Shown here in pieces: positions 5,424 to 58,263 of a DNA stretch of 64,000 bases. This stretch comes from Aureimonas sp. ME7. GTDB lineage: Bacteria; Pseudomonadota; Alphaproteobacteria; Rhizobiales; Rhizobiaceae. The notes beneath the pieces are model-generated. The model ran no database searches and was not told the DNA's origin. It saw only the letters and a list, made by a program, of their open reading frames with translations. Each line of letters opens with the position of its first letter. Position 1 is the stretch's first letter. The position numbers and the translations under genes were made by a program. The DNA lies in contig NZ_CAJCKW010000003.1 in assembly GCF_903970965.1 (NCBI RefSeq), positions 310,001-374,000 on the forward strand, written 5' to 3'.

Positions 5424-6842
5424 ATGAACCAGGATCTGGCCGAGAAACTGGCGCGAGCGTTGGGGCCGAAGGGCTGGATCCTCGGCGACGAGGCGGCATC
5501 CTATCGTCGCGACTGGTTGGATCGCTACGGCGAAATGCCGCTCGGCGTCGCTCGGCCGGCGTCTACGCAGGACGTCTCGACGGTCTTGGCGCTCGCCTTC
5601 GAGGCGGGTGTGCCGGTCGTGCCGCAGGGCGGCAACACCGGCCTTTGCGGCGGGTCGGTGCTGGGGGCGCCGGGCGGCATCATCCTGTCGCTCGCCCGTA
5701 TGGCCGCGATCGGCGAGCCCGACCGCGCCAGCGGTTCGATCGAGGTGGAAGCCGGCGCGGTGCTGGCGCGCCTGCATGCGGGCCTGGAGGGCACGGGGCT
5801 GATGTTTCCGCTCCATCTCGGTGCCGAGGGAAGCGCGCAGATCGGCGGGTTGATCGGCACCAACGCGGGCGGCAGCCACGCCTTCCGCTTCGGCATGATG
5901 CAAGACTTTGTTCTCGGCCTCGAAGTGGTGCTCGCCGACGGCACGGTGTGGAACGGTCTTCGCGCGGTCCAAAAGGACAATGCCGGCTATCAGTTGCGCC
6001 GCCTGTTCGCCGGCGCGGAAGGCACGCTCGGCGTGATCACGCGCGCCGTCCTGAAGCTCTACCCCGAGCCCTGCCAGCGCGCGACGGCGCTGCTGGCACT
6101 GCCGGGCGAAGCGGCGGCCGTCGCCTTCGGAACGCGCCTGCGCGCCGAGGCCGGCGAGGTGCTGACTGGGCTCGAGTTCTTCTGCGATCTCGGCCTCGAC
6201 CTGGCGCTTCGCCATGTTCCAGGCCTCAGCTATCCGCTGGAGGCAAGGGGTGGCACCTATCTTCTGGTCGAGGTCGCCAGTGCCTCGCCGAAGATGCCGC
6301 TGGACGACATCCTGTCCGCCACGCTCGAATGGGGCATGGCGGAAGGCCTCGTCCTCGACGGGGCGCTGGCGGCCTCGCAGGCCCAGCGCGCCGCCTTCTG
6401 GCGCTTGCGCGAGGAGCAGCCGGAGGGCCAGCGGCTGGAGGGCGCGCAGCTCAAGCACGACATCGCCGTGCCGCCTGGTCGTATCGCCGAGTTCGTCGGA
6501 GAGGCTGGGGCGCTGTGCGAAGCCATCCTGTCGGGTGTGCGCATCAACCCGTTCGGGCATCTGGCCGACGGCAACATTCACTACAATCTGTCGCCGCCGG
6601 AAGGCTCCGCCGACTTCTCGGAGCGGGGCGAGGAGCTCGCGCTCGCCATCGCCGGGCTGGCGACGCGGATGGGCGGGAGCTTTGCCGCCGAACACGGCCT
6701 CGGCCAAGCGAAGGTGAAGCTCGCCGACGCGCTGCGTTCGCAGACCGAGCGGCAGCTGATGCGATCCATCCGCCGCGCGCTCGACCCGAGTGGTCAGCTC
6801 AACCCTTGGGCCTTGGCGCCGCTGAACGACGAGACGGGGTGA
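5424..6842 (+). CDS. FAD-binding oxidoreductase, D-2-hydroxyacid / D-2-hydroxyglutarate dehydrogenase type
   Basis: A 472-residue flavoprotein of the GlcD / D-lactate dehydrogenase (VAO) family. The ATG at 5424 follows GGGAG with 8-nt spacing; an in-frame GTG 15 bases upstream is less likely. The FAD-binding domain shows PASTQDVSTVLALA, VVPQGGNTGLCGGSV, GAEGSAQIGGLIGTNAGGSH and a FAGAEGTLGVIT segment. The C-terminal FAD-oxidase domain shows FGHLADGNIHYN (metal/substrate histidines) and FAAEHGLGQAK. It probably oxidises a D-2-hydroxyacid and passes electrons onward. Substrate assignment among lactate, glycolate and 2-hydroxyglutarate is open. Confidence 0.88.
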   Translation: MNQDLAEKLARALGPKGWILGDEAASYRRDWLDRYGEMPLGVARPASTQDVSTVLALAFEAGVPVVPQGGNTGLCGGSVLGAPGGIILSLARMAAIGEPDRASGSIEVEAGAVLARLHAGLEGTGLMFPLHLGAEGSAQIGGLIGTNAGGSHAFRFGMMQDFVLGLEVVLADGTVWNGLRAVQKDNAGYQLRRLFAGAEGTLGVITRAVLKLYPEPCQRATALLALPGEAAAVAFGTRLRAEAGEVLTGLEFFCDLGLDLALRHVPGLSYPLEARGGTYLLVEVASASPKMPLDDILSATLEWGMAEGLVLDGALAASQAQRAAFWRLREEQPEGQRLEGAQLKHDIAVPPGRIAEFVGEAGALCEAILSGVRINPFGHLADGNIHYNLSPPEGSADFSERGEELALAIAGLATRMGGSFAAEHGLGQAKVKLADALRSQTERQLMRSIRRALDPSGQLNPWALAPLNDETG

Positions 6843-6844
6843 AC

Positions 6845-6865
6845 CCCGGATCAGGAATCTGGGGC
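6845..6865. terminator. Hairpin between convergent genes
   Basis: CCCCGGAT (6845-6852) pairs with ATCTGGGG (6858-6865) around a 5-nt loop, with one G-U pair. It lies between the convergent dehydrogenase and serine-hydrolase genes. There is no clear T-tract on either side, so it is a possible shared terminator only. Confidence 0.4.
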
Positions 6866-6891
6866 ACCTTCCATAGAGGCCGCCGAGCGCG

Positions 6892-8145
6892 TTAGTTCAG
6901 CGCTTCGGCCACGGCGTCGAAGAAGGCCATCGGATCGACCGGCTCCTTGCCGGTGGGCTTGGGCTGGGCGCCGAAGGTCACGATCACGACGTTCTCAGTC
7001 GGGTTGATGTAGATGTTCTGCCCCTGGATGCCGACGGCCGCGAACGCCTTGTCGCGGATCGAGGCTTCCGTCCAGCCGGTCCACCACATGTAGCCGTAGT
7101 CGAGCTTGGTGCCGTCCTTGAGTTTCGTCGGCTGCGAGGCTTCGGCCACCCAGCCGTCCGGCAGGATCGAGGTGCCGTCGATGCGCCCTTGGTCGAGGAA
7201 GAACAGGCCGAAGCGTCCGTAGTCGCGCAAGGTGGCGCTGATCCCGCTGCCCCCGATCTCGGACCCGTCCGGCGAATCCAGCCACCATTCGGCGTCGGCC
7301 TCCATTCCGTAGGGAATCCAGATCTTCTCCGACAGGTAGTCGGCCAGCGGCTTGCCGACGGCGCCGCGCACGATCTCGCCGAGCACCTGCGTTTCGCCGG
7401 TCGAGTAGTTGTTGACCGTACCGGGCTCGGCCGCGCGCGGCAGGCTCGCCATCAGCTTCATCGCCGATCCCGCTTCCTGGCTTACTTGAGCGCGCAGCAG
7501 CGCCCGCCGATCCGATTGGGGGTCGGTATAGGTCTCGTTCCAGCGAACGCCCGAACTCATCATCAGGACGTCGCGCAAGGTGACGCCCTCGTAGGCGCTG
7601 TTCTTCAGGGCGGGCACGGACGCGGTCACCGGGGCGTCGAGACCGGGAAGCTTGCCTTCCTTGATGGCGATCGCGGCAAGCGTCGAGGTGATGGATTTCG
7701 CCACCGACATCGACATCCAGCGCGTGTCCGGCCCGTTGCCGCGCTGGTAGGCCTCGAAGGCGATCTTGCCGTCCTTCAGAACCAGGAGCGCGGTGAAACT
7801 GTCCAGCGCCATGACGTCGTAGAGGTCGTAGGTTTCCTCGCCGAGCGTGAACCGGACGTCGCCGAGCGGACGTTCGGCCTGCGGCAATTCGTGGACCTTG
7901 CCCCCGGCCTTGATCTCGCGCGTGGGAAACAGCCGGTCGATGTTGCGATAGGTCGAAACCGCCGCATCCGGCAGGAGCTTGCCGTCGTACATCTCCTCCA
8001 CCGTGCCGATCGGCTCGCCGGCGTGGCGGTAGGGCGCCTGTGCCAGGGCGGGGGAGGCGAGAAGGCCGGCGAGGACGGTCGCCAGAAGGGGAACGGATGC
8101 CCTTGCGCGGCGCTTTCCACGTGTCGTCGCTTGGCTGGTCGTCAT
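6892..8145 (-). CDS. Secreted beta-lactamase-family serine hydrolase
   Basis: A 417-residue protein of the class C beta-lactamase / NylB-like esterase fold. The ATG at 8145 follows GGGAG. A signal peptide (hydrophobic VPLLATVLAGLLASPALAQA) predicts periplasmic export. The catalytic SxxK is SVAK (Ser147, Lys150), and the Tyr of the YxN-like element is in NNYSTG (Tyr247). The family includes esterases, D-aminopeptidases and 6-aminohexanoate-dimer hydrolase as well as beta-lactamases, so resistance should not be assumed. It is a single gene with no operon partner. Confidence 0.85.
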   Translation of the reverse strand: MTTSQATTRGKRRARASVPLLATVLAGLLASPALAQAPYRHAGEPIGTVEEMYDGKLLPDAAVSTYRNIDRLFPTREIKAGGKVHELPQAERPLGDVRFTLGEETYDLYDVMALDSFTALLVLKDGKIAFEAYQRGNGPDTRWMSMSVAKSITSTLAAIAIKEGKLPGLDAPVTASVPALKNSAYEGVTLRDVLMMSSGVRWNETYTDPQSDRRALLRAQVSQEAGSAMKLMASLPRAAEPGTVNNYSTGETQVLGEIVRGAVGKPLADYLSEKIWIPYGMEADAEWWLDSPDGSEIGGSGISATLRDYGRFGLFFLDQGRIDGTSILPDGWVAEASQPTKLKDGTKLDYGYMWWTGWTEASIRDKAFAAVGIQGQNIYINPTENVVIVTFGAQPKPTGKEPVDPMAFFDAVAEALN

Positions 8146-8240
8146 GTCCCGCTCCCTCTTGCCGCCGCGAATCCCCGCGGCTCGCCCCGGAGGGTGGCCG
8201 CATCGCACGACGAGGGCAAGACGCAGGACTGCGGGAAGCG

Positions 8241-8633
8241 CTAGTTCAGGACCCGCCGTTCGGCCGGCGCATCCAGCGAGAAGGCGGGAATGGCGATCTC
8301 GAAGATCGTGCCGTCGATCAGCTGCATGCGGTAGTGCCCGCGCATGATGCCGGACGGCGTCGGCAACGGGCAGCCGGACGTGTAGGTGAAGCTGTCGCCG
8401 GGGCCGAGGATCGGCTCCTCGCCGACGACGCCGGGGCCTTCCACCGTCTCGACATGGCCGCGAGCGTCGGTGATCTGCCAGAAGCGCGAGCGCAGCTGCA
8501 CCGTGTCGCGCGAGCCGTTGTCGATCTCGACGCGGTAGGCGAAGACCCAGCGGCCCGCATCCGGGTCCGACTGGTCCTTGAGGAAGCTCGGCGTCACCCG
8601 CACGGTGATATGGCGCGTCGTCGCCTGATACAT
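8241..8633 (-). CDS. apaG: ApaG domain protein
   Basis: A 130-residue single-domain ApaG protein, the usual length. I chose the ATG at 8633 (preceded by GAGAAAG) over one 30 bases upstream. Typical pattern: [51 protein letters not shown] and MRGHYRM. ApaG is an Fn3-like beta-sandwich linked to Co2+/Mg2+ tolerance in enterobacteria; its biochemical role is unsettled. It lies 100 bases downstream of metZ on the same strand, a neighbourhood conserved in rhizobia. Confidence 0.93.
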
Positions 8634-43616: not shown

Positions 43617-44168
43617 TCAGGCCGCCGGGGCGACGCCGATGATCTGCGAGGAGATGGAGTCGGGGCCGAACTCGCCGTCCCCCTCGATCCCGAGAAGGTC
43701 GGACATCCGGGTCCGGGCGCGCGACACGCGGCTCTTGATCGTACCCACCGCGCATTTGCAGATGTCGGCCGCTTCCTCGTAGGAGAAGCCGGAGGCGCCG
43801 ATCAGGATCAGCGCCTCGCGCTGGTCGTCCGGCAGCTGGTCCAGCGCCTTGCGGAAGTCCTGCAGGTCGAGATGGCCCTGCTGCTCGGGATGGCCGGCGA
43901 GCTGCATCGCGTGGATCCCGTCCACGTCCTGAACCTCGCGGCCCTTCTTGCGCATCTGCGTGTAGAACTCGTTGCGCAGGATGGTGAAGAGCCAGGCCTT
44001 GAGATTGGTGCCGGGCTGAAACGTGTGCTGCTTGTCCCACGCCTTCACCAGCGTTTCCTGGACGAGGTCGTCGGCGCGGTCGAACGAGCCGGCCAGCGAA
44101 GCGGCGAAGGCACGCAGGTTGGGAATGATGGCGATCAGTTCCCGGCGGAAGTCGGTATCCTGTGCCAT
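43617..44168 (-). CDS. ecfG: General stress sigma factor EcfG
   Basis: A 183-residue ECF15-type sigma factor. Region 2: DRADDLVQETLVKAWDK, then NLKAWLFTILRN. Region 4: LPDDQREALILIGASGFSYE followed by EEAADICKCAVGTIKSRVSRAR. It recognises GGAAC-N16/17-CGTT promoters. It is held inactive by NepR, encoded just upstream. Only 6 bases separate the nepR stop from the ecfG start. Confidence 0.95.
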   Translation of the reverse strand: MAQDTDFRRELIAIIPNLRAFAASLAGSFDRADDLVQETLVKAWDKQHTFQPGTNLKAWLFTILRNEFYTQMRKKGREVQDVDGIHAMQLAGHPEQQGHLDLQDFRKALDQLPDDQREALILIGASGFSYEEAADICKCAVGTIKSRVSRARTRMSDLLGIEGDGEFGPDSISSQIIGVAPAA

Positions 44169-44174
44169 GACGGG

Positions 44175-44405
44175 TCAGTTCCCTCCATCGCGCTTGGCCT
44201 CGGCGGCGTCGAGCGCGTCGAGCAGCGACAGGAACCGATCGGGAACCGGCTCGCTCGCCACGTCGTCGTAGTACGCCTTCAGCCGGCGCCCGATCGCCGA
44301 GGATGTTCCCAGTTCGGGCTGGCCGATCTCGGGCTGGGATGGGGAAGGGCTGGTATCGGGGCTCGTGCCGGACATGACGGGATCTTTGTTTCTCGGGTCT
44401 TCCAT
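44175..44405 (-). CDS. nepR: Anti-sigma factor NepR
   Basis: A 76-residue protein. ATG at 44405 follows AGGTGGA; an ATG 30 bases downstream is possible. The conserved core is IGRRLKAYYDDVASEPVPDRFLSLLDAL, with two helices that bind EcfG or, after phosphorylation, PhyR. Flanks are low complexity and disordered, as is usual. It is the first gene of the nepR-ecfG unit, divergent from phyR. Confidence 0.93.
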   Translation of the reverse strand: MEDPRNKDPVMSGTSPDTSPSPSQPEIGQPELGTSSAIGRRLKAYYDDVASEPVPDRFLSLLDALDAAEAKRDGGN

Positions 44406-44668
44406 TCCACCTCTCGCCCTCCAGCGGCGGGCGCCGGACCCCGGCGCCTTCTCGCTAGATGTAGGCAGCGCGCGTCTTCGCAAGAGCATCCTGTCGCATC
44501 CGGAAATGTTGTGCGCGAAGGGTCTAGCGTTTCCTGCCTCATGCCTTACTTAGGGCTGCGTATGCGATTTCCACCCGGCCCCAGCGGATTCACGCTGGAC
44601 GTCCGGCGGCTCGCACGGACAAGATGATGGCCGAGTCGTGAGGCTCGGAAAGCTACGAGGGAATGTTC
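44406..44668. other. Divergent region between nepR and phyR
   Basis: About 260 bases that should drive both nepR-ecfG and phyR. GGAAA and CGTTT motifs occur at 44501-44535, but the spacing (21 nt plus-strand) does not fit an EcfG promoter. I could not find a GGAAC-N16/17-CGTT element, so autoregulation is not visible here. Confidence 0.5.
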
Positions 44669-45460
44669 ATGTCGATGTCCTCGCGCATTGCGCCGCATAT
44701 CCCGTATCTCCGGCGGTATGCACGTGCTTTGAGCGGTTCGCAGTCCTCCGGCGATGCGTATGTCGCAGCTGTTCTCGAGGCGCTGATCGCCGAGCCGAGC
44801 CTGTTCGACACGCAGGAAAGCCCTCGAATCTCGCTCTACAAGCTCTTCTCCTCCCTTTGGCAGTCTGTGGAAGTGAACGTGCGCGAGGACGCGCCGGTTT
44901 CCGCGTGGGAGGAAAAAGCCTCGCGCAATCTGCGCGGCATCTCCCCCCTGCCGAGGCAGGCCTTCCTGCTCGTGGCGGTGGAAGGCTTCACCACCGACGA
45001 AGCGGCGCATATCCTCGGCGTCGGCGAGAGCGATTTCTCCGATCTGATCAGCCAGGCCAGCACCGATATCGGCCGTCAGGTCTCGACCAACATCATGATC
45101 ATCGAGGACGAGCCTCTGATCGCGATGGACATCGAGCAGATGGTGGAAAGCCTCGGCCATGGAGTGACGGGCATCGCGCGCACCCACAAGGAGGCGATCA
45201 CCCTCTTCGAGCAGCAGAAGCCGGGCATGGTTCTGGCCGACATCCAGCTCGCCGACGGCTCGTCGGGGATCGACGCGGTCAACGACATTCTCGCCAAGGT
45301 TTCGGTGCCGGTGATCTTCATCACCGCCTTCCCGGAGCGGCTCCTGACGGGCGAGCGCCCGGAGCCGACCTTCCTCGTCACCAAGCCGTTCAATCCGGAC
45401 ATGGTGAAGGCGCTGATCAGTCAGGCGCTGTTCTTCGAGACGGAGCGCGAAGCAGCCTGA
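44669..45460 (+). CDS. phyR: General stress response regulator PhyR
   Basis: A 263-residue anti-anti-sigma response regulator. ATG 44669 is chosen because GAGGGA lies 6 bases upstream. The N-terminal sigma-like domain (IAPHIPYLRRYARALSGSQ, then LPRQAFLLVAVEGFTTDEAA) mimics EcfG and binds NepR. The C-terminal receiver has the acidic pair in IIEDEP, phospho-acceptor Asp191 (VLADIQLADG) and Lys in VTKPFN. Phosphorylation frees the sigma-like domain to take NepR from EcfG. Confidence 0.95.
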   Translation: MSMSSRIAPHIPYLRRYARALSGSQSSGDAYVAAVLEALIAEPSLFDTQESPRISLYKLFSSLWQSVEVNVREDAPVSAWEEKASRNLRGISPLPRQAFLLVAVEGFTTDEAAHILGVGESDFSDLISQASTDIGRQVSTNIMIIEDEPLIAMDIEQMVESLGHGVTGIARTHKEAITLFEQQKPGMVLADIQLADGSSGIDAVNDILAKVSVPVIFITAFPERLLTGERPEPTFLVTKPFNPDMVKALISQALFFETEREAA

Positions 45461-50071: not shown

Positions 50072-51667
50072 ATGGGTCTGACCAAGAAGCTCCTGGCGGC
50101 GACGGCGATCGTCCTCGCGCTCGGGTCCGCCGCTTCGGCGAAAACCTTCGTCTTCTGCTCGGAAGGCTCGCCCGAGGGCTTCGATCCCGGCCTCTACACG
50201 GCTGGAACGACGTTCGACGCCTCGGCGCATCCGGTGTTCAACCGGCTGGCCGAGTTCAAGAAGGGCACCACGGAAACCGAGCCGGGCCTTGCGGAAAGCT
50301 GGGAAGTTTCGGACGACGGGCTCCAGTACACGTTCAAGCTGCGCCCGGGCGTCAAGTTCCACTCCAACGCCTCGTTCACGCCGACGCGCGACATGAACGC
50401 CGACGACGTCGTGTTCTCGTTCGACCGTCAGGCCAATGCCGAGAACCCCTGGCACCAGTACGTGTCGGGTGCGTCGTGGGAGTATTACTCCTCGATGTCG
50501 ATGCCCGACATCGTGAAGACGATCGAGAAGATGGACGACATGACCGTCCGCTTCACCCTGAACGAGCCCTATGCGCCGTTCATCGCCAATGTCGCGATGC
50601 CCTTCGCCTCCATCGTCTCGAAGGAATACGCCGACAAGCTGGCTGAAGCCGGCAATCAGGCGCAGTTCAACCAGCAGCCGATCGGCACCGGACCCTTCCA
50701 GTTCGTCGCCTACCAGCCCGACGCGGTGATCCGCTACCAGGCCTTCGCCGACTACTGGAACGGCAAGCAGCCGATCGACGACCTCGTCTTCGCCATCACC
50801 AAGGACGCCTCCGTGCGCCAGCAGCGCTTGGCGGCCGGCGAGTGCCATCTGATGGCCTATCCGAACCCGGCCGACGTGCCGGCGCTCCAGCAGAACGCCG
50901 ACCTCAAGGTCGACGAGCAGGAAGGCCTGAACGTCGGCTACTTCGCCTACAACACGAAGCAGGCGCCGTTCGACAAGCCGGAAGTGCGCCGCGCGCTCAA
51001 CATGGCGATTGACAAGGACGCCATCGTCCAGGCCGTCTACCAGGGCGCCGGGCAGAAGGCCAAGGCGCCGATCCCGCCGACCATGTGGAGCTATAACGAC
51101 CAGCTCGTGGACGACAAGTACGACCCGGAAGCGGCCAAGAAGATGCTGGACGAAGCCGGCGTCAAGGACCTTTCGATGAAGGTGTGGGCGATGCCCGTGT
51201 CGCGCCCCTACAACCCGAACGCCGCGCGCATGGCCGAGCTGATCCAGGCGGACTTCGCCAAGGTCGGCGTCAAGGTCGAGATCGTCACCTACGAGTGGGG
51301 CGAGTATCTCGAGCGCTCCAAGGCGGAAGACCGCGACGGCGCCGTGCTGCTCGGCTGGACGGGCGACAACGGCGACCCGGACAACTTCCTGGCGGTTCTT
51401 CTCGGCTGCGACGCGGTGGGCAACGCCAACCGGGCGCAGTGGTGCAACGAGGACTTCAACAAGCTGATCCTCGAAGCCAAGACCAAGCCGACGCAGGACG
51501 AGCGCGCCAAGCTCTACGAACAGGCGCAGGTCATCTTCAAGGAGCAGGCGCCCTGGGCGACGATTGCCCATTCGGTGGTCTACGTCCCGATGCGCAAGAA
51601 CGTCACCGGCTTCGTGCAGAGCCCGCTCGGCGACTACACGTTCGACGGCGTCGACATCACCGAGTAA
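50072..51667 (+). CDS. dppA: Dipeptide ABC transporter, periplasmic binding protein
   Basis: A 531-residue SBP_bac_5 protein very close in pattern to E. coli DppA: KTFVFCSEGSPEGFDPGLYT, LNADDVVFSFDRQ-type segment MNADDVVFSFDRQANAENP, and MPVSRPYNPNAARMAELIQA. The signal peptide is LLAATAIVLALGSAASA. It binds dipeptides or haem-like ligands in the periplasm. It is first in dppABCDF, separated from dppB by a hairpin, as expected for an abundant binding protein. Confidence 0.93.
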   Translation: MGLTKKLLAATAIVLALGSAASAKTFVFCSEGSPEGFDPGLYTAGTTFDASAHPVFNRLAEFKKGTTETEPGLAESWEVSDDGLQYTFKLRPGVKFHSNASFTPTRDMNADDVVFSFDRQANAENPWHQYVSGASWEYYSSMSMPDIVKTIEKMDDMTVRFTLNEPYAPFIANVAMPFASIVSKEYADKLAEAGNQAQFNQQPIGTGPFQFVAYQPDAVIRYQAFADYWNGKQPIDDLVFAITKDASVRQQRLAAGECHLMAYPNPADVPALQQNADLKVDEQEGLNVGYFAYNTKQAPFDKPEVRRALNMAIDKDAIVQAVYQGAGQKAKAPIPPTMWSYNDQLVDDKYDPEAAKKMLDEAGVKDLSMKVWAMPVSRPYNPNAARMAELIQADFAKVGVKVEIVTYEWGEYLERSKAEDRDGAVLLGWTGDNGDPDNFLAVLLGCDAVGNANRAQWCNEDFNKLILEAKTKPTQDERAKLYEQAQVIFKEQAPWATIAHSVVYVPMRKNVTGFVQSPLGDYTFDGVDITE

Positions 51668-51688
51668 TCGGCTCGAATCTCATCCGGG

Positions 51689-51720
51689 AAAGGGGAGCGG
51701 CACCACGCCGTTCCCCTTTT
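51689..51720 (+). terminator. Intercistronic hairpin after dppA
   Basis: AAAGGGGAGCGGC (51689-51701) pairs with GCCGTTCCCCTTTT (51707-51720) around a 5-nt loop with one G-U pair. The T-rich end makes it terminator-like. It probably lowers expression of dppBCDF relative to dppA or protects the dppA message. Confidence 0.75.
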
Positions 51721-51805
51721 CGTTTGGACGGAATCGCGGTTTCCGGTACGGTTCCGTCATCAGTCGCCCATGTGCGGCATCAGGACCCTCAGAGGCCCAT
51801 ACTTC

Positions 51806-52813
51806 ATGTTTCGCTTCATCGTTGCGCGCTTCGGCGTCCTCGTTCCGACCTTTGTCGGCGTGGCGATCGTCGCCTTTTCCTTCATCCGCCTCCTGCCGGG
51901 CGATCCGGTCACGCTGATGGCGGGCGAGCGCGGCATCTCGGCCGAGCGCCATGCGCAGCTGACCGCCGCGCTCGGCTACGACCAGCCGCTGCCGATCCAG
52001 TTCTGGCACTATCTCGTCGGTCTGTTCGGGGGCGACTTCGGCACCTCGATCGTCACAAGGCGACCGGTTCTCACCGAGTTCATGACCCTGTTTCCGGCGA
52101 CCGTCGAGCTGTCGCTCTTCGCCATCCTGATCGCGGTCGCGCTCGGCGTGCCGGCCGGTGTCTTCGCGGCCGTGAAACGCGGCTCCTGGGCGGACCAGAC
52201 AATCATGGGAACGGCGCTCGTCGGCTACTCCATGCCGATCTTCTGGTGGGGCCTCCTCCTCATCATCCTGTTTTCGGGAACGCTCGGCTGGACCCCGGTT
52301 TCGGGCCGCATCTCGCTTCTCTACTTCTTCCCGCCGGTCACCGGCTTCATGCTGATCGACAGCCTCCTTTCCGGACAGGCCGGTGCCTTCAAGTCGGCGA
52401 TCAGCCATCTCATCCTGCCGGGTGTGGTTCTGGCCACCATTCCGCTCGCCGTGATCGCGCGCCAGACGCGCTCGGCCATGCTGGAGGTGCTGAGCGAGGA
52501 CTACGTGCGCACGGCGCGCGCCAAGGGACTGCGAGCCAATCGCGTCATCGGCATCCACGCCTTGCGCAACGCCCTCATCCCCGTGGTGACGACGATCGGC
52601 CTGCAGATCGGCGTGATGATGGCGGGCGCGATCCTGACCGAGACGATCTTCTCCTGGCCGGGCATCGGCAAGTGGATGGTGGATTCGGTGTTTCGCCGGG
52701 ACTACCCGGTGGTGCAGGGCGGCCTGCTCCTGATCGCCATCGTGGTGATGGTGGTCAATCTCGTGGTCGATCTTCTCTACGGCCTGATCAATCCTCGCGT
52801 TCGAGCCCGGTAG
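51806..52813 (+). CDS. dppB: Dipeptide ABC transporter permease
   Basis: A 335-residue permease with six helices. N-terminus FIVARFGVLVPTFVGVAIVAF, then FIRLLPGDPV. The EAA motif is YVRTARAKGLRANRVIGIHALRN. The ATG at 51806 follows GAGG. It pairs with DppC. Confidence 0.93.
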   Translation: MFRFIVARFGVLVPTFVGVAIVAFSFIRLLPGDPVTLMAGERGISAERHAQLTAALGYDQPLPIQFWHYLVGLFGGDFGTSIVTRRPVLTEFMTLFPATVELSLFAILIAVALGVPAGVFAAVKRGSWADQTIMGTALVGYSMPIFWWGLLLIILFSGTLGWTPVSGRISLLYFFPPVTGFMLIDSLLSGQAGAFKSAISHLILPGVVLATIPLAVIARQTRSAMLEVLSEDYVRTARAKGLRANRVIGIHALRNALIPVVTTIGLQIGVMMAGAILTETIFSWPGIGKWMVDSVFRRDYPVVQGGLLLIAIVVMVVNLVVDLLYGLINPRVRAR

Positions 52814-52823
52814 GAGAGACCGC

Positions 52824-53765
52824 ATGTCCCATATCGAAGCTCAGGAAGCGGAAGCCGGCGTCGGCGCGCTGATCCCCGATCGCATTCCGGCTGGCGGTGA
52901 GCGCCGCCGGATGCTCAAGGAGTTCTGGTACTACTTCTCCGTCAACCGGGGGGCCGTCGCCGGCCTCGTCGTGTTCGCGATCGTTGTTCTCGTCGCCTTC
53001 CTGGCACCCGTGATCGCCCCTCACGATCCGACCGCGCAGAACCGCGCGGCGCTGCTCATGCCGCCGGTCTTCATGGAAGGCGGGCAATGGTCCTACATCC
53101 TCGGAACCGACGCGGTCGGGCGCGATATCCTGTCCCGCCTGATCTATGGCGCGCAGTATTCGCTGTTCATCGGCACGTTCGTCGTGATCCTCGCCGTGTC
53201 CACCGGCATCGTTATCGGTCTGGTCGCCGGCTACTTCCGGGGCTGGGTCGATACCGTGATCATGCGGGTGATGGATGTCATCCTGGCGTTTCCCTCGCTG
53301 CTTCTGGCGCTCGTTCTCGTCGCGATCCTCGGGCCCGGCCTCGTCAACGCGATGATCGCGATCGCATTGGTGCTGCAGCCCCATTTCGTGCGCCTGACAC
53401 GCGCGTCGGTGATGGCCGAGAAGGAGCGCGAATACGTCACCGCCGCGCGCGTCGTCGGCGCGGGTCCCCTGCGGCTGATGTTCAAGACCATCCTGCCGAA
53501 CTGCCTGGGGCCGCTGATCGTCCAGGCGACTCTCTCCTTCTCCAACGCCATTCTCGATGCCGCGGCGCTGGGCTTCCTCGGCCTCGGCGCCCAGCCGCCG
53601 ACGCCCGAATGGGGCACGATGCTGGCCGAAGCGCGCGAATTCGTGTTGCGCGCCTGGTGGGTGGTGACCTTTCCGGGTCTCGCCATCCTCGTCACGGTGC
53701 TCGCCATCAACCTGATCGGCGACGGCCTGCGCGATGCGCTGGACCCGAAGATGCGCCGGAGCTGA
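52824..53765 (+). CDS. dppC: Dipeptide ABC transporter permease
   Basis: A 313-residue permease. It has an N-terminal OppC_N-like segment, then [17 protein letters not shown] and an EAA motif [20 protein letters not shown]. About six helices. Ten bases after dppB, GGAG upstream. DppB/DppC form the channel. Confidence 0.93.
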
Positions 53766-53773
53766 GACCGTCG

Positions 53774-54613
53774 ATGTCCCTTCTCGAAATCCGCAACCTC
53801 ACCGTTTCCTTCGACACGTCCTCCGGCCCGTTCAAGGCCGTGGACGGGATCGATCTCCATGTCGACCGTCAGGAAGTGCTGGCCATTGTCGGCGAGTCCG
53901 GCTCCGGCAAGTCGGTCGGCATGCTGGCGACCATGGGCCTCCTGCCCAAGACCGCGACGGTCACCGCCGATCGTCTCGCCTATGACGGGCGCGACCTCCT
54001 GACCCTGACCAAGCGCCAGCGGCGCGAGATCATCGGGCGCGACATCGCCATGATCTTCCAGGAGCCGATGGCCAGCCTCAACCCCTGCTTCACGGTCGGC
54101 TTCCAGCTGACCGAGACGCTGCGCTTCCATCTCGGTCTCGGCCGGGCGGCGCGACGCGCGCGGGCGATCGAGCTTCTCCAGGCGGTCGGCATTCCCGATC
54201 CGGAAAGCCGTATGTCGAGCTTCCCGCACCAGATGTCGGGCGGCCAGTGCCAGCGCGTGATGATCGCCATGGCCATCGCCTGCAACCCGAAGCTCCTGAT
54301 CGCCGACGAGCCGACGACGGCGCTCGACGTGACGATCCAGAAGCAGATCCTCGATCTTCTGGTGAACCTCCAGCGCGAGCACGGAATGGGGCTCATCATG
54401 ATCACCCACGACATGGGCGTCGTGGCGGAAACGGCGCACCGCGTCGTCGTCCAGTACAAGGGACGCAAGATGGAGGAGGCGGGCGTGCTCGAACTCTTCG
54501 AATCGCCGAAGAACCCCTACACCCGCGCGCTGCTCTCGGCGCTGCCGGAAAACGCCACGGGCGACCGCCTGCCGACGGTGGCCGATGCCATGGCTTTGGA
54601 GACTGCCCGATGA
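53774..54613 (+). CDS. dppD: Dipeptide ABC transporter ATP-binding protein
   Basis: A 279-residue ATPase. Walker [12 protein letters not shown]-loop [11 protein letters not shown], signature [16 protein letters not shown], Walker [14 protein letters not shown] and switch His MITHDMG. A C-terminal oligopeptide-transporter domain follows ([16 protein letters not shown]). Eight bases after dppC. Works as heterodimer with DppF. Confidence 0.95.
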
Positions 54614-55428
54614 CCGCGGTTCTGGAAGCCCGGGGCCTCAAGCGCGACTATCTCGTGCCGCGCGGCCCCTTCTCGAGCCCCAAGGTGGTGCAGGCCGTGA
54701 AGGGCGTGAGCTTTTCGGTCGAGAAGGGCAAGACGCTGGCGATCGTCGGCGAATCGGGCTGCGGCAAGTCGACGCTCGCGCGCATCCTGACCCTGATCGA
54801 CGAGCCGACGGCGGGCGAGCTCTTCATCGACGGCGAGCCGATGCGCGTCGCCCGGGGCGTGACGGCCGAGATGCGCCGCAAGGTGCAGATCGTGTTCCAA
54901 AACCCCTATGGCTCGCTCAACCCGCGCCAGCGAATCGGCGACGTCCTGACCGAGCCGCTTCTTCTCAACACCGACATGGGTGCGGCGGAGCGGCGCGAGC
55001 GCGCCCTAGCCATGCTGGTGAAGGTCGGGCTGGGACCGGAGCACTTCAACCGGTATCCGCATATGTTCTCGGGCGGCCAGCGCCAGCGCATCGCCATCGC
55101 GCGCGCCTTGATGTTATCGCCCAGCCTCCTCGTGTTGGACGAGCCCGTGTCGGCGCTCGATCTGTCGGTCCAGGCGCAGATCCTCAACCTTCTCGCCGAC
55201 CTTCAGGACGAGTTCGGCCTGACCTACGTCTTCATCAGCCACGATCTGTCGGTGGTGCGCTACATCGCCGACAAGGTGATGGTAATGTACTACGGCGAGG
55301 TGGTGGAATACGGCACGCGCGACGAGGTCTTCGCCGCGCCGAGCCACGACTACACCAAGAAGCTCTTCGCCTCGACGCCGCGGGCCGATGTCGACAGCAT
55401 CCGCGCGCGCATGGCCGCGCGGGCCTGA
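54610..55428 (+). CDS. dppF: Dipeptide ABC transporter ATP-binding protein
   Basis: A 272-residue ATPase overlapping dppD as ATGA. Walker [11 protein letters not shown]-loop [11 protein letters not shown], signature [15 protein letters not shown], Walker [14 protein letters not shown], switch His FISHDLS. Complete, with the C-terminal segment [11 protein letters not shown]. Last gene of dppABCDF; it ends 4 bases from the convergent ProV-like gene. Confidence 0.95.
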
Positions 55429-55432
55429 GGTT

Positions 55433-56455
55433 TCAGGCGAAGAGGGCCCAGAGCTTGCGGGCGTCGATCTTGCCGAGAAGGCGCCCGCGCTCGGCGACCA
55501 CCACGTCGCCGCGCCGCAGCGTCGGCAGGACCTGGGCGAGCGGCGTTCCCGTCTGGACGAGGCCGGCAAAGCCGCTCGCCTCGTCCTCCGGCGCGATCGG
55601 CGTCATCACGTCCTGGGCTTCGAGGAAGCCGACCGGGTTGAGCTCCGACAGGAGAGCGGCCACGTGATCGCTCGCCGGCTGGAGAACGAGATCGCTTGGG
55701 CGGCCGACCTGCACCAGCCGTCCGTTGTCGAGAACCGCGACGCGGTCGCCGACGCGCAGCGCCTCGGCCGGGTCGCAGCTCGACAGGATCACCGTCTTGT
55801 CCGTGCGCTCGCGCAGGCGGCGCAGCGCGTTGACGAGCGCGGGATCGCGCCAAGCGTCCGGCGTGTCGATGGCGGTGTCGAGAAACAGGATCGGCTCGGA
55901 TCCGAGCGCTGCGAGGAGCAGTTGCACCTGCGGGCGGATGCCGGGCGGCAGATCCTCGATGCGCATGTCGGCGGCGTCGCGAAGGCCGGCACTGGCGAGT
56001 TCCAGAACGGCGCGTGGCGCCCGGTCGCGGCGCGAAACGCCGTGGCGCGCGAGATGCGCCGTGACGACGGAGGCGACGGTCCGGCGCGCGGGCAGCGGAA
56101 CGGGTGCGCGCGCGAACGCCACCGTTCGGGCCCCGTGCCGCTTGCGGTCCGCCTTGGTGGCGGTGGACAGCTCGACCGGGCCGTGCGCCGTGACGAACGA
56201 GGCCGAACCGCGCGCGATCTCGGCCGAGCCGTCGAGGGCGGCCAGCAGGCTCGTCTTGCCCGAGCCCGAACCACCGACAAGCACCAGGATCTCGCCGGGA
56301 TAAACGTCGAGATCCACGTCGATCACGGCCACCGCGCCTTCGCCCCCCAGGCGGATCGCATGGGGGCTCTCGCCCGCATCGGCGCGCCGAAGGGCGGCGC
56401 CGGGTTGGCGGCCATGGACGACGGCAAGGTGGCGGATGCTGATCTGCGGGGTCAT
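55433..56455 (-). CDS. Degenerate ProV/ChoV-like ABC ATPase, orphan
   Basis: A 340-residue ABC ATPase related to glycine-betaine/choline importers (ProV). Walker A is kept (GGSGSGKTS, 61-69). The rest is altered: the Q-loop Gln is missing around residue 113-122 (AFARAPVPLPA), the signature is LPPGIRPQ (169-176) instead of LSGGMRQR, Walker B is ILFLDTA (189-195) without the catalytic Glu, and the switch His is Cys (SSCDPAEA, 225-232). A C-terminal CBS-like part (FLEAQDVMTPI) remains. No permease or binding-protein gene is beside it. Probably inactive as an ATPase or regulatory. Confidence 0.75.
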   Translation of the reverse strand: MTPQISIRHLAVVHGRQPGAALRRADAGESPHAIRLGGEGAVAVIDVDLDVYPGEILVLVGGSGSGKTSLLAALDGSAEIARGSASFVTAHGPVELSTATKADRKRHGARTVAFARAPVPLPARRTVASVVTAHLARHGVSRRDRAPRAVLELASAGLRDAADMRIEDLPPGIRPQVQLLLAALGSEPILFLDTAIDTPDAWRDPALVNALRRLRERTDKTVILSSCDPAEALRVGDRVAVLDNGRLVQVGRPSDLVLQPASDHVAALLSELNPVGFLEAQDVMTPIAPEDEASGFAGLVQTGTPLAQVLPTLRRGDVVVAERGRLLGKIDARKLWALFA

Positions 56456-56583
56456 GGGGCGGGCTTATGCGCCAGCGGCATCCCCCGCGCAAGCGCGGCG
56501 GGACGCTGGGTTGGTAACGGTTTTGCGCCAGTTCGATCGCAAGTTTCGCGCCCCGCGCGCGGGAGATGACAAGGAGACGTCGT

Positions 56584-58263
56584 TTGTCCGAACCCCAGTC
56601 CGATATAGCCATCGCCCGCCGGGCCGAGCTCCAGCCGATCGGCGCGGTCGCGGAGCGGCTCGGCATTCCGCCGGAGGCAGTCATTCCCTACGGGCGCGAC
56701 AAGGCCAAGCTCGACGGCGCGTTTCTTCGCTCGCTCGAAGGGCGGCAGGAGGGCAAGCTGATTCTGGTGACGGCGATCAACCCGACGCCGGCCGGCGAGG
56801 GCAAGACCACGACCACAGTCGGCCTCGGGGACGGGCTGAACGCCATCGGCCGGCGTGCGGCCATCTGCCTGCGCGAGCCCTCTCTCGGCCCCTGCTTCGG
56901 GCAGAAGGGCGGGGCGGCGGGCGGCGGCCACGCCCAGGTCGTGCCGATGGAGGACATCAACCTCCACTTCACCGGCGACTTCCACGCCATCACGACGGCG
57001 CACAACCTTCTGGCGGCGATGGTGGACAACCACCTCCATTGGGGCAACGCGCTCGATCTCGACCCACGCCGCATCGTCTGGCGGCGCGTTCTCGACATGA
57101 ACGACCGGGCGCTGCGCGACATCGTCCAGTCGCTCGGCGGCCCCGCCAACGGCTTGCCGCGCGAATCCGGGTTCGACATCACGGTCGCCTCCGAAATCAT
57201 GGCGATCGTCTGCCTCGCCACCGGCCCAGAGGATCTGCGCGAGCGGCTGGGGCGGATCGTCGTCGGCTACCGACGCGACCGCTCCCGCGTCTATGCGCGC
57301 GATCTCGAGGCCGACGGCGCGATGGCGGTCCTCCTGAAGGACGCGATGCTGCCGAACCTCGTGCAGACGCTGGAGAACAACCCGGCCCTCGTCCATGGCG
57401 GCCCTTTCGCCAACATCGCGCACGGCTGCAACTCCGTGGTGGCCACTAAGGCGGCGCTGCGCATGGCCGACTACGTGGTGACGGAAGCGGGCTTCGGCGC
57501 CGATCTCGGCGCCGAGAAGTTCTTCGACATCAAGTGCCGGCAGGCCGGCTTGAAGCCGGACGTCACGGTGATCGTGGCGACCGTGCGAGCGCTCAAGATG
57601 AACGGCGGCGTCCCCAAGGATGCGCTGGGCGCCGAAAACCTCGACGCCGTGCGGCGGGGCGCCGCCAACCTCAAGCGGCACGTGGCCAACTGCATCGGCT
57701 TCGGCGTGCCGGTGATCGTCGCGGTCAACCATTTCGGCACCGACACACCAGACGAGATCGAGGCCGTAAAGGTCGCGGCGGCCGAAGCCGGTGCCGAGGC
57801 CGTCCTGTGTCGCCATTGGGCGGAGGGCTCGAAGGGCATCCTGGAACTGGCCGAGAAGGTGGCGGCGCTCGCCGATTCGGGGCGGGCCCGCTTCCGGCCC
57901 GCCTATGCCGACGAAACCAGTCTTCTCGGCAAGATCGAGACGGTGGTGAAGGACATCTACCACGGCGCGGCGGTGACGGCGGAGCCGGGCGTCCTCAAGC
58001 TTCTCGGCGAGTTCGAGGCGGACGGCTACGGCCACCTGCCGGTGTGCATGGCCAAGACGCAGTATTCCTTCTCCACCGACCCGAGCCTGCTCGGCGCCCC
58101 GAGCGGCCATGTCGTGCATGTGCGCGACGTGCGCCTGGCAGCCGGCGCTGGCTTCGTGGTGGCGATCTGCGGCGACATCCTGACCATGCCGGGGCTGCCC
58201 CGCCATCCCGCCGCCGAGCGCATCTTTCTGGACGAGGAGGGCCGCGTGGAGGGGCTGTTCTAA
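56584..58263 (+). CDS. fhs: Formate-tetrahydrofolate ligase
   Basis: A 559-residue enzyme, the usual length. I chose TTG at 56584 because AAGGAG lies 7 bases upstream, rather than an ATG 18 bases before it. The N-terminal P-loop is [20 protein letters not shown]. Other signatures are [46 protein letters not shown] and [19 protein letters not shown]. It makes 10-formyl-tetrahydrofolate from formate, ATP and THF. Confidence 0.96.

Follow-up and report, generated by a model that had tools for sequence, protein, structure and literature searches.

A ChoV/ProV-type ABC ATPase deprived of its catalytic motifs was found on the minus strand, at positions 55433-56455, of the window, i.e. the whole 64,000-nucleotide stretch of Aureimonas sp. 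ME7 DNA that was analyzed. There is good support for the view, taken in a preliminary description of the sequence, that this protein is no pump motor: four motifs are lost in all eight orthologues and the permease gene has been lost at the same locus. Of the two roles suggested there instead, that of a regulator is probable and that of a decoy ATPase is conceivable. The favored reading, with a probability of roughly 0.6, is that a former ChoV ATPase subunit is now a nucleotide-binding, non-hydrolyzing pseudo-ATPase used as a regulator or adaptor.

The degenerate ChoV-like gene

The gene is an intact, ATG-started open reading frame of 340 amino acids, and its G+C content at the three codon positions (0.79/0.51/0.88) is a coding signature. 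Both bear out the intact frame described before. The top NCBIfam match was TIGR03415 (choline ABC ATP-binding protein) with an E-value of 1.8e-47. The score of 162.2 bits lies under the curated cut-off of 483.75, which a canonical ChoV orthologue from a congener passes with 505.7 bits. The Pfam profile ABC_tran is passed by the degenerate protein with 41.9 bits. Records named Aureimonas supply relatives with 75-77% identity. The features of the gene are as follows.

55433..56455, minus strand: degenerate ChoV-like CDS, 340 amino acids (intact open reading frame, coding signature, seven same-genus orthologues with 65-77% identity)
56464..56495, minus strand: promoter-like block CGCTTGC-N19-CATAAG, exact in 8/8 carriers (putative promoter)
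56252..56275, minus strand: Walker A GGSGSGKT, residues 61-68, intact (alignment)
56090..56116, minus strand: former Q-loop and permease-coupling segment, residues 114-122, Q117 replaced, mostly variable (alignment)
55931..55951, minus strand: former signature LSGGMQQ, now LPPGIRP, residues 169-175 (alignment)
55841..55891, minus strand: Walker B and D-loop, residues 189-205, with Asp193 and Asp200 kept, Glu194 lost and a new, invariant AWRDP after Asp200 (alignment)
55769..55783, minus strand: former switch-histidine segment, residues 225-229, His227 replaced by Cys (Arg in genomes G001 and G011) (alignment)
55436..55645, minus strand: C-terminal part, residues 271-340, carrying a single CBS-like motif (group identities, predicted fold)

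Loss of the catalytic motifs

For the analysis of the motifs, the eight degenerate orthologues were aligned with seven canonical ChoV proteins of the same genus and 27 other ChoV proteins of the family, resulting in 34 canonical rows. The residues Q117, S170, G171, E194 and H227 are kept in 34/34 canonical rows and in none of the eight degenerate ones. In the protein of the window, Q117 is Ala, LSGG has become LPPG, E194 is Thr and H227 is Cys. Across the eight degenerate proteins, position 117 of the Q-loop is A, S, R or G, the signature reads LPPG or LGPG, position 194 of Walker B is T, G or D, and the switch position 227 is C in six and R in two (G001 and G011). The P-loop Lys67, the Walker B Asp193 and the D-loop Asp200 are present in all eight, and G011 carries a Walker A variant altered at two positions, GAPGSGKS.

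A total of 115 columns is invariant in the 34 canonical rows. The degenerate proteins keep 41 of these in 8/8, replace 50 in 8/8 and are mixed in the remaining 24. By another count, the degenerate group has 45 columns with a fixed residue that is seen in no canonical row, the clearest run of such newly fixed residues being AWRDP, just after the D-loop.

The preliminary description had reported an intact Walker A next to four replaced catalytic motifs and had asked whether the replacements are conserved among homologues. The same losses were identified in all eight orthologues, and the motif loss is no accident of one genome.

Predicted structure and the C-terminal region

The structure was predicted with AlphaFold2 on 33 aligned sequences. 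The mean pLDDT of the five whole-protein models ranged between 77.8 and 91.5, and the best model (91.5, pTM 0.88) was kept. Its best match in the PDB was chain C of OpuA 7ahe, in an inhibited state (Z 27.8, rmsd 9.8, 317 residues). The OpuA ATPase subunits (PDB 7ahe, 7ahc, 7ahd), in which a nucleotide-binding domain is followed by CBS domains, are the closest solved structures by sequence as well as by fold.

For the C-terminal 74 residues alone, a b-a-b-b-a fold was predicted (pLDDT 87.3). The weak matches of this fold were by description nearly all CBS-bearing proteins, with a best E-value of 0.0042 and none below 0.001; the structures of ClC, CNNM/CorC and Snf4 bear CBS domains. The CBS-like end named in the preliminary description is in line with this predicted fold and its CBS-type matches, but it does not extend to the Pfam CBS profile, which found no match in the degenerate protein at E-values up to 1.

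Selection and redistribution of constraint

Selection was estimated as a maximum likelihood one-ratio omega and with NG86, whose dS is near saturation in wide pairs. Omega was 0.071 for the eight degenerate genes compared to 0.042 for the seven canonical choV genes. For seven other genes of the locus (6-8 sequences each) the values ranged between 0.024 and 0.071, the highest being equal to that of the degenerate gene. In the same run as these locus genes, a set of seven of the eight degenerate genes, with the G001 gene left out, gave an omega of 0.062. The three closest species show an NG86 dN/dS of 0.07-0.11, and their three pairs differ by 12/4/56, 11/3/65 and 9/5/56 changes at codon positions 1/2/3. 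The degenerate gene is under purifying selection, which is somewhat weaker than that on canonical choV.

The overall within-group identity was 0.763 for the degenerate and 0.780 for the canonical proteins. In the region of the Q-loop, the helical part and the signature (residues 109-186), the identity was 0.860 in the canonical group versus 0.664 in the degenerate group, where only the region 76-108 is looser (0.626). The C-terminal region (residues 271-340) behaves in the opposite way, with 0.609 in the canonical group, the lowest of seven regions, versus 0.818 in the degenerate group. It is among the best conserved parts of the degenerate protein and not the single best one, since the RecA C-lobe (0.855 degenerate, 0.843 canonical) and Walker A (0.847 degenerate versus 0.976 canonical) are high as well.

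The per-column identity of the degenerate group was found to correlate with that of the canonical group at a Spearman coefficient of 0.08 and with that of the family at 0.15, whereas the canonical group and the family correlate at 0.71. The contrast between the C-terminal and the helical region was reached by 0 of 20000 column permutations, each column being taken as independent. For the C-terminal region, dN was 0 at a dS of 0.20-0.30 in the three closest species, and in wider pairs (NG86) it was 0.124 at a dS of 0.326 (G000-G002) and 0.253 at 0.568 (G000-G001). Constraint on the degenerate protein is therefore redistributed rather than simply relaxed, and the purifying selection looked for in the preliminary description is present at an omega of 0.071.

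Distribution in the genus and the order

The survey of the genus covered 21 Aureimonas genomes, including that of the window. The degenerate gene was found in eight of them with 65-100% identity and an intact frame in every case. Canonical choV (70-100% identity to the query from G012) was identified in seven genomes (G003, G005, G007, G012, G014, G015 and G018), and six genomes have neither gene (G008, G009, G013, G017, G019 and G020). In these six non-carriers, a tblastn search for remnants of the gene gave matches at E-values up to 1e-5 on dpp ATPase genes only, and weaker, scattered matches at 0.2-10.

Among 397 evenly drawn genomes of the order, the profile of the degenerate protein matched at E <= 1e-76 in one, which is the window's own; the remaining 396 gave no match at this level. 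Outside the genus, the 28 family loci with the best scores (L072-L099) were considered, and the 27 that were parsed (all except L072) proved canonical without exception, for which reason the degenerate state is regarded as derived. No paper on a stand-alone, motif-less ChoV is among the titles listed from the open-access literature.

Normal motifs in close relatives, combined with relaxed selection on this gene, had been named beforehand as the mark of a decaying gene. The first part of this combination applies, as normal motifs occur at the locus in 7 of the 21 genomes, while the second does not, because an omega of 0.071 is purifying.

Organization of the locus and the second choWV pair

In the canonical operons, choV directly follows choW. 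The gene order in G003 was choV, choW, c10 (a small regulator-like gene) and c9 (1029 amino acids). In G011 it was the degenerate gene, c10 and c9, on the same strands as in G003 and with choW missing; on the degenerate side, this type of order was found in G011 only. The next gene of the window on the choW side reads as fhs, and fhs adjoins choW in G005, G012, G014, G015 and G018. Five other carriers have c14 or c7 on that side, with neither c10 nor fhs next to the gene. The names dpp/opp, PutR/PutA-like (c10, c9), fhs, trpE and choX were read from the sequences.

The permease gene choW (80-100% identity) was found in 7/7 genomes with canonical choV and in 0/14 others, thus in none of the eight carriers. 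Another choWV pair, which shares 56-62% identity with the canonical one, occurs as a second pair in 14/14 genomes without the syntenic choW and in 0/7 with it. In G000 it is located in L179 (G000:C2:243000-259000) at about 5770-8500, and a gene reading as choX precedes it in the genome of the window, the one in which this was looked at. At the syntenic locus, two binding-protein candidates used as tblastn queries against 20 loci and the window detected no choX (E <= 1e-3). The degenerate gene stands alone in the loci read, without a membrane-domain or canonical partner gene, and no partner is suggested by any neighbor within its transcription unit.

As a pattern across the 21 genomes of the genus, the two choWV pairs exclude one another.

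A complete-looking dpp/opp-type peptide ABC operon is located at 50072-55428 of the window, on the other strand, tail to tail with the gene and 4 bases away from it. This operon is present at the locus in 13 of the 14 genomes without syntenic choW; in G001 there is an ATPase gene only, at a contig end. It is not beside choV in any of the seven canonical genomes. The earlier remark that no permease is adjacent consequently holds for a choline/betaine permease, but not for ABC transporters in general.

The genes c10 and c9 (1029-1050 amino acids for c9), read as PutR and PutA, adjoin choWV in G003 and G007 and the degenerate gene in G011 (L059, L060, L053), hinting at a possible link of the lost importer with the use of proline or betaine. 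Further away in the window, at 43617-45460, two open reading frames resemble the EcfG-type sigma factor and the PhyR general stress regulator of Alphaproteobacteria.

Evolutionary history of the locus

The trpE-like neighbor protein was used as a proxy for the species tree, which is thus based on one protein with a midpoint root. In this tree, the 14 genomes (eight carriers and six non-carriers) were separated from the seven canonical genomes with a branch support of 100/100. Since carriers and non-carriers share one side of this well-supported branch, the change probably happened once and was followed by later losses. The absence of the degenerate gene from 6 of the 14 species of this clade shows it to be dispensable in evolution.

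The ChoV tree, which took in 13 of the 15 second-system choV loci (L105-L119), placed the eight degenerate proteins in one clade (100/100) on a stem of about 6 changes per column. A clade of the degenerate and the syntenic canonical genes was neither rejected nor demonstrated (p-AU 0.454, very long branch), and the attachment point is left free by the tree. The case for descent from choV is made by position and family, not by this tree: the degenerate gene occupies the locus position of canonical choV, as seen from the order and strands shared by G003 and G011 and from the fhs neighbor in the window.

In the simplest history, the second choWV pair would have been present or gained in the ancestor of the 14 genomes, choW would have been lost and choV remodeled, in an order that the proposal leaves free. 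The remodeled gene would later have been lost in some lines.

A conserved promoter-like block upstream of the gene

Upstream of the eight degenerate genes, hardly anything but the block CGCTTGC-N19-CATAAG could be aligned, while its flanks and the 19-base spacer have diverged. The CATAAG element begins 12-14 bases ahead of the ATG, and the block ends 8 bases from the ATG in the window. A search of the 21 genomes with a fuller pattern of the block resulted in eight exact matches, one before each degenerate gene and none elsewhere. The pattern was derived from these same eight sequences, so that matching there is by construction, and the finding lies in its absence from other places. When up to one mismatch was allowed, two additional matches were found in the non-carriers G017 and G019 and none in the seven canonical genomes. 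These are regarded as background, because a reversed control pattern gave four matches with up to one mismatch. The spacing of the block suggests a sigma-70-type promoter with a predicted leaderless or nearly leaderless message.

Comparison with known systems

The degenerate protein agrees with the canonical ChoV proteins of the seven congeners, which belong to the ChoXWV system (TIGR03415), in length and predicted fold, in its locus and in having a C-terminal extension. It differs from them in scoring under the TIGR03415 cut-off, in the four lost motifs and in the missing choW beside the gene. The nearest architecture is that of the CBS-controlled OpuA, which is an active importer gated by osmotic conditions and has tandem CBS domains (PMC10710835). 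The degenerate protein has a single CBS-like motif and lacks the catalytic set.

In heterodimeric ABC exporters, nucleotide-binding domains likewise lose the Walker B Glu, the H-loop or the signature while the ABC fold stays under selection (PMC7756269). Such domains are joined to membrane domains and to a complementary canonical site, whereas the degenerate ChoV stands alone with both site halves lost. The nearest precedent for an importer ATPase that doubles as a regulator is MalK acting on MalT (PMC10427625), although MalK continues to serve its own transporter as the ATP-binding subunit.

Proposed function and alternative explanations

A composite ABC site combines Walker A/B, the Q-loop and the H-loop of one subunit with the signature supplied by its partner, and contact with the membrane domain is a further role of the Q-loop (PMC7756269). 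With the Q-loop, the signature, the Walker B Glu and the switch His missing from a single protein, any pair would be spoiled at both its sites and in its link to the permease, which argues for a pseudo-ATPase and for its reading as a regulator or adaptor.

The following course of events is proposed. A choline-type importer would have been dismantled at this locus in one Aureimonas clade, with choW lost and a separate choWV pair elsewhere. The gene choV would have been kept under what appears to be its own promoter and then remodeled. Nucleotide binding is predicted to have been retained, probably, from the invariant Lys67 and the Mg-binding Asp193, while neither ABC-type ATP hydrolysis nor coupling to a permease would be expected with the Q-loop, the signature, the Walker B Glu and the switch His gone. 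Constraint has moved to the CBS-like motif at the C-terminus and to the residues following the D-loop, with the RecA lobe staying conserved. The product may now bind another protein and act on it as a regulator or adaptor that depends on a nucleotide, by analogy with MalK holding MalT; pairing through the CBS-like end, like any partner, is putative. A more specific version, a dedicated regulator sensing both a nucleotide and a CBS ligand, with its own probably leaderless promoter, that arose from an importer ATPase within one genus, is put forward tentatively and is itself rather less likely than not to be correct.

The main rival explanation is that the protein pairs with the ChoV of the second system or with another ProV-type ATPase, either as an inhibitory subunit (a brake) or as the degenerate half-site of an asymmetric pump. 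We consider this unlikely, although it is the strongest of the alternatives. The second choWV pair is present in 14/14 clade genomes, the conserved RecA lobe (0.855) and C-terminal region (0.818) are potential pairing surfaces, and heterodimeric ABC exporters with degenerate sites are known (PMC7756269). However, the second pair also occurs in the six genomes without the degenerate gene, and conservation is poor in the Q-loop segment contacting the permease. As both site halves are lost in one protein, a mixed pair would be crippled at both sites, and a brake therefore fits better than an active asymmetric pump.

It is less probable still that the gene is undergoing slow decay, as a remnant that outlived the lost choWV importer by chance. 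The permease is gone, the gene was lost in 6 of the 14 clade members, and its omega of 0.071 exceeds the 0.042 of canonical choV, all of which would fit a relic. Against this stand an omega that is low in itself, eight intact frames out of eight, a C-terminal dN of 0 at a dS of 0.20-0.30 in the three closest species, an upstream block that is exact in 8/8 amid diverged flanks, and 45 newly fixed columns. Simple decay is rejected on the omega value, the intact frames, the map of constraint and the upstream block, and the gene is probably not a relic.

The position of the degenerate gene beside the dpp-type operon in carriers raises the thought that it supplies the ATPase subunit of this or another, non-adjacent importer with unusual motifs, for which multitask ATPases such as MsmX are a precedent. 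This is very unlikely, since the operon seems to hold two ATPases of its own on the opposite strand, is present without the degenerate gene in six non-carrier species, and the Q-loop and signature are lost from the protein.

The idea that selection preserves an antisense gene or RNA here rather than the protein hardly deserves consideration: the opposite strand is open across the whole gene in the window (55388-56569), but it is closed in two of eight orthologues (L034 and L037) and substitutions fall mostly at third positions of the degenerate-protein frame, on which grounds an antisense gene is rejected, and no Rfam match at the gathering score was found for a structured RNA in 55200-56800.

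Implications for Aureimonas and for ChoV annotation

With the pseudo-ATPase reading preferred, the genus offers a working-looking form (seven species), a remodeled form (eight) and a loss (six) side by side. This allows asking what the ABC ATPase fold can do after the loss of transport, and which function selection preserves, nucleotide binding or that of the CBS-like motif at the C-terminus. Genes of this kind may carry names for choline or proline/betaine ATP-binding proteins in annotations, yet they should not power transport. If the reading is true, the conversion of a pump motor into a pseudo-enzyme would be traceable residue by residue, because sister species retain a working form at this locus.
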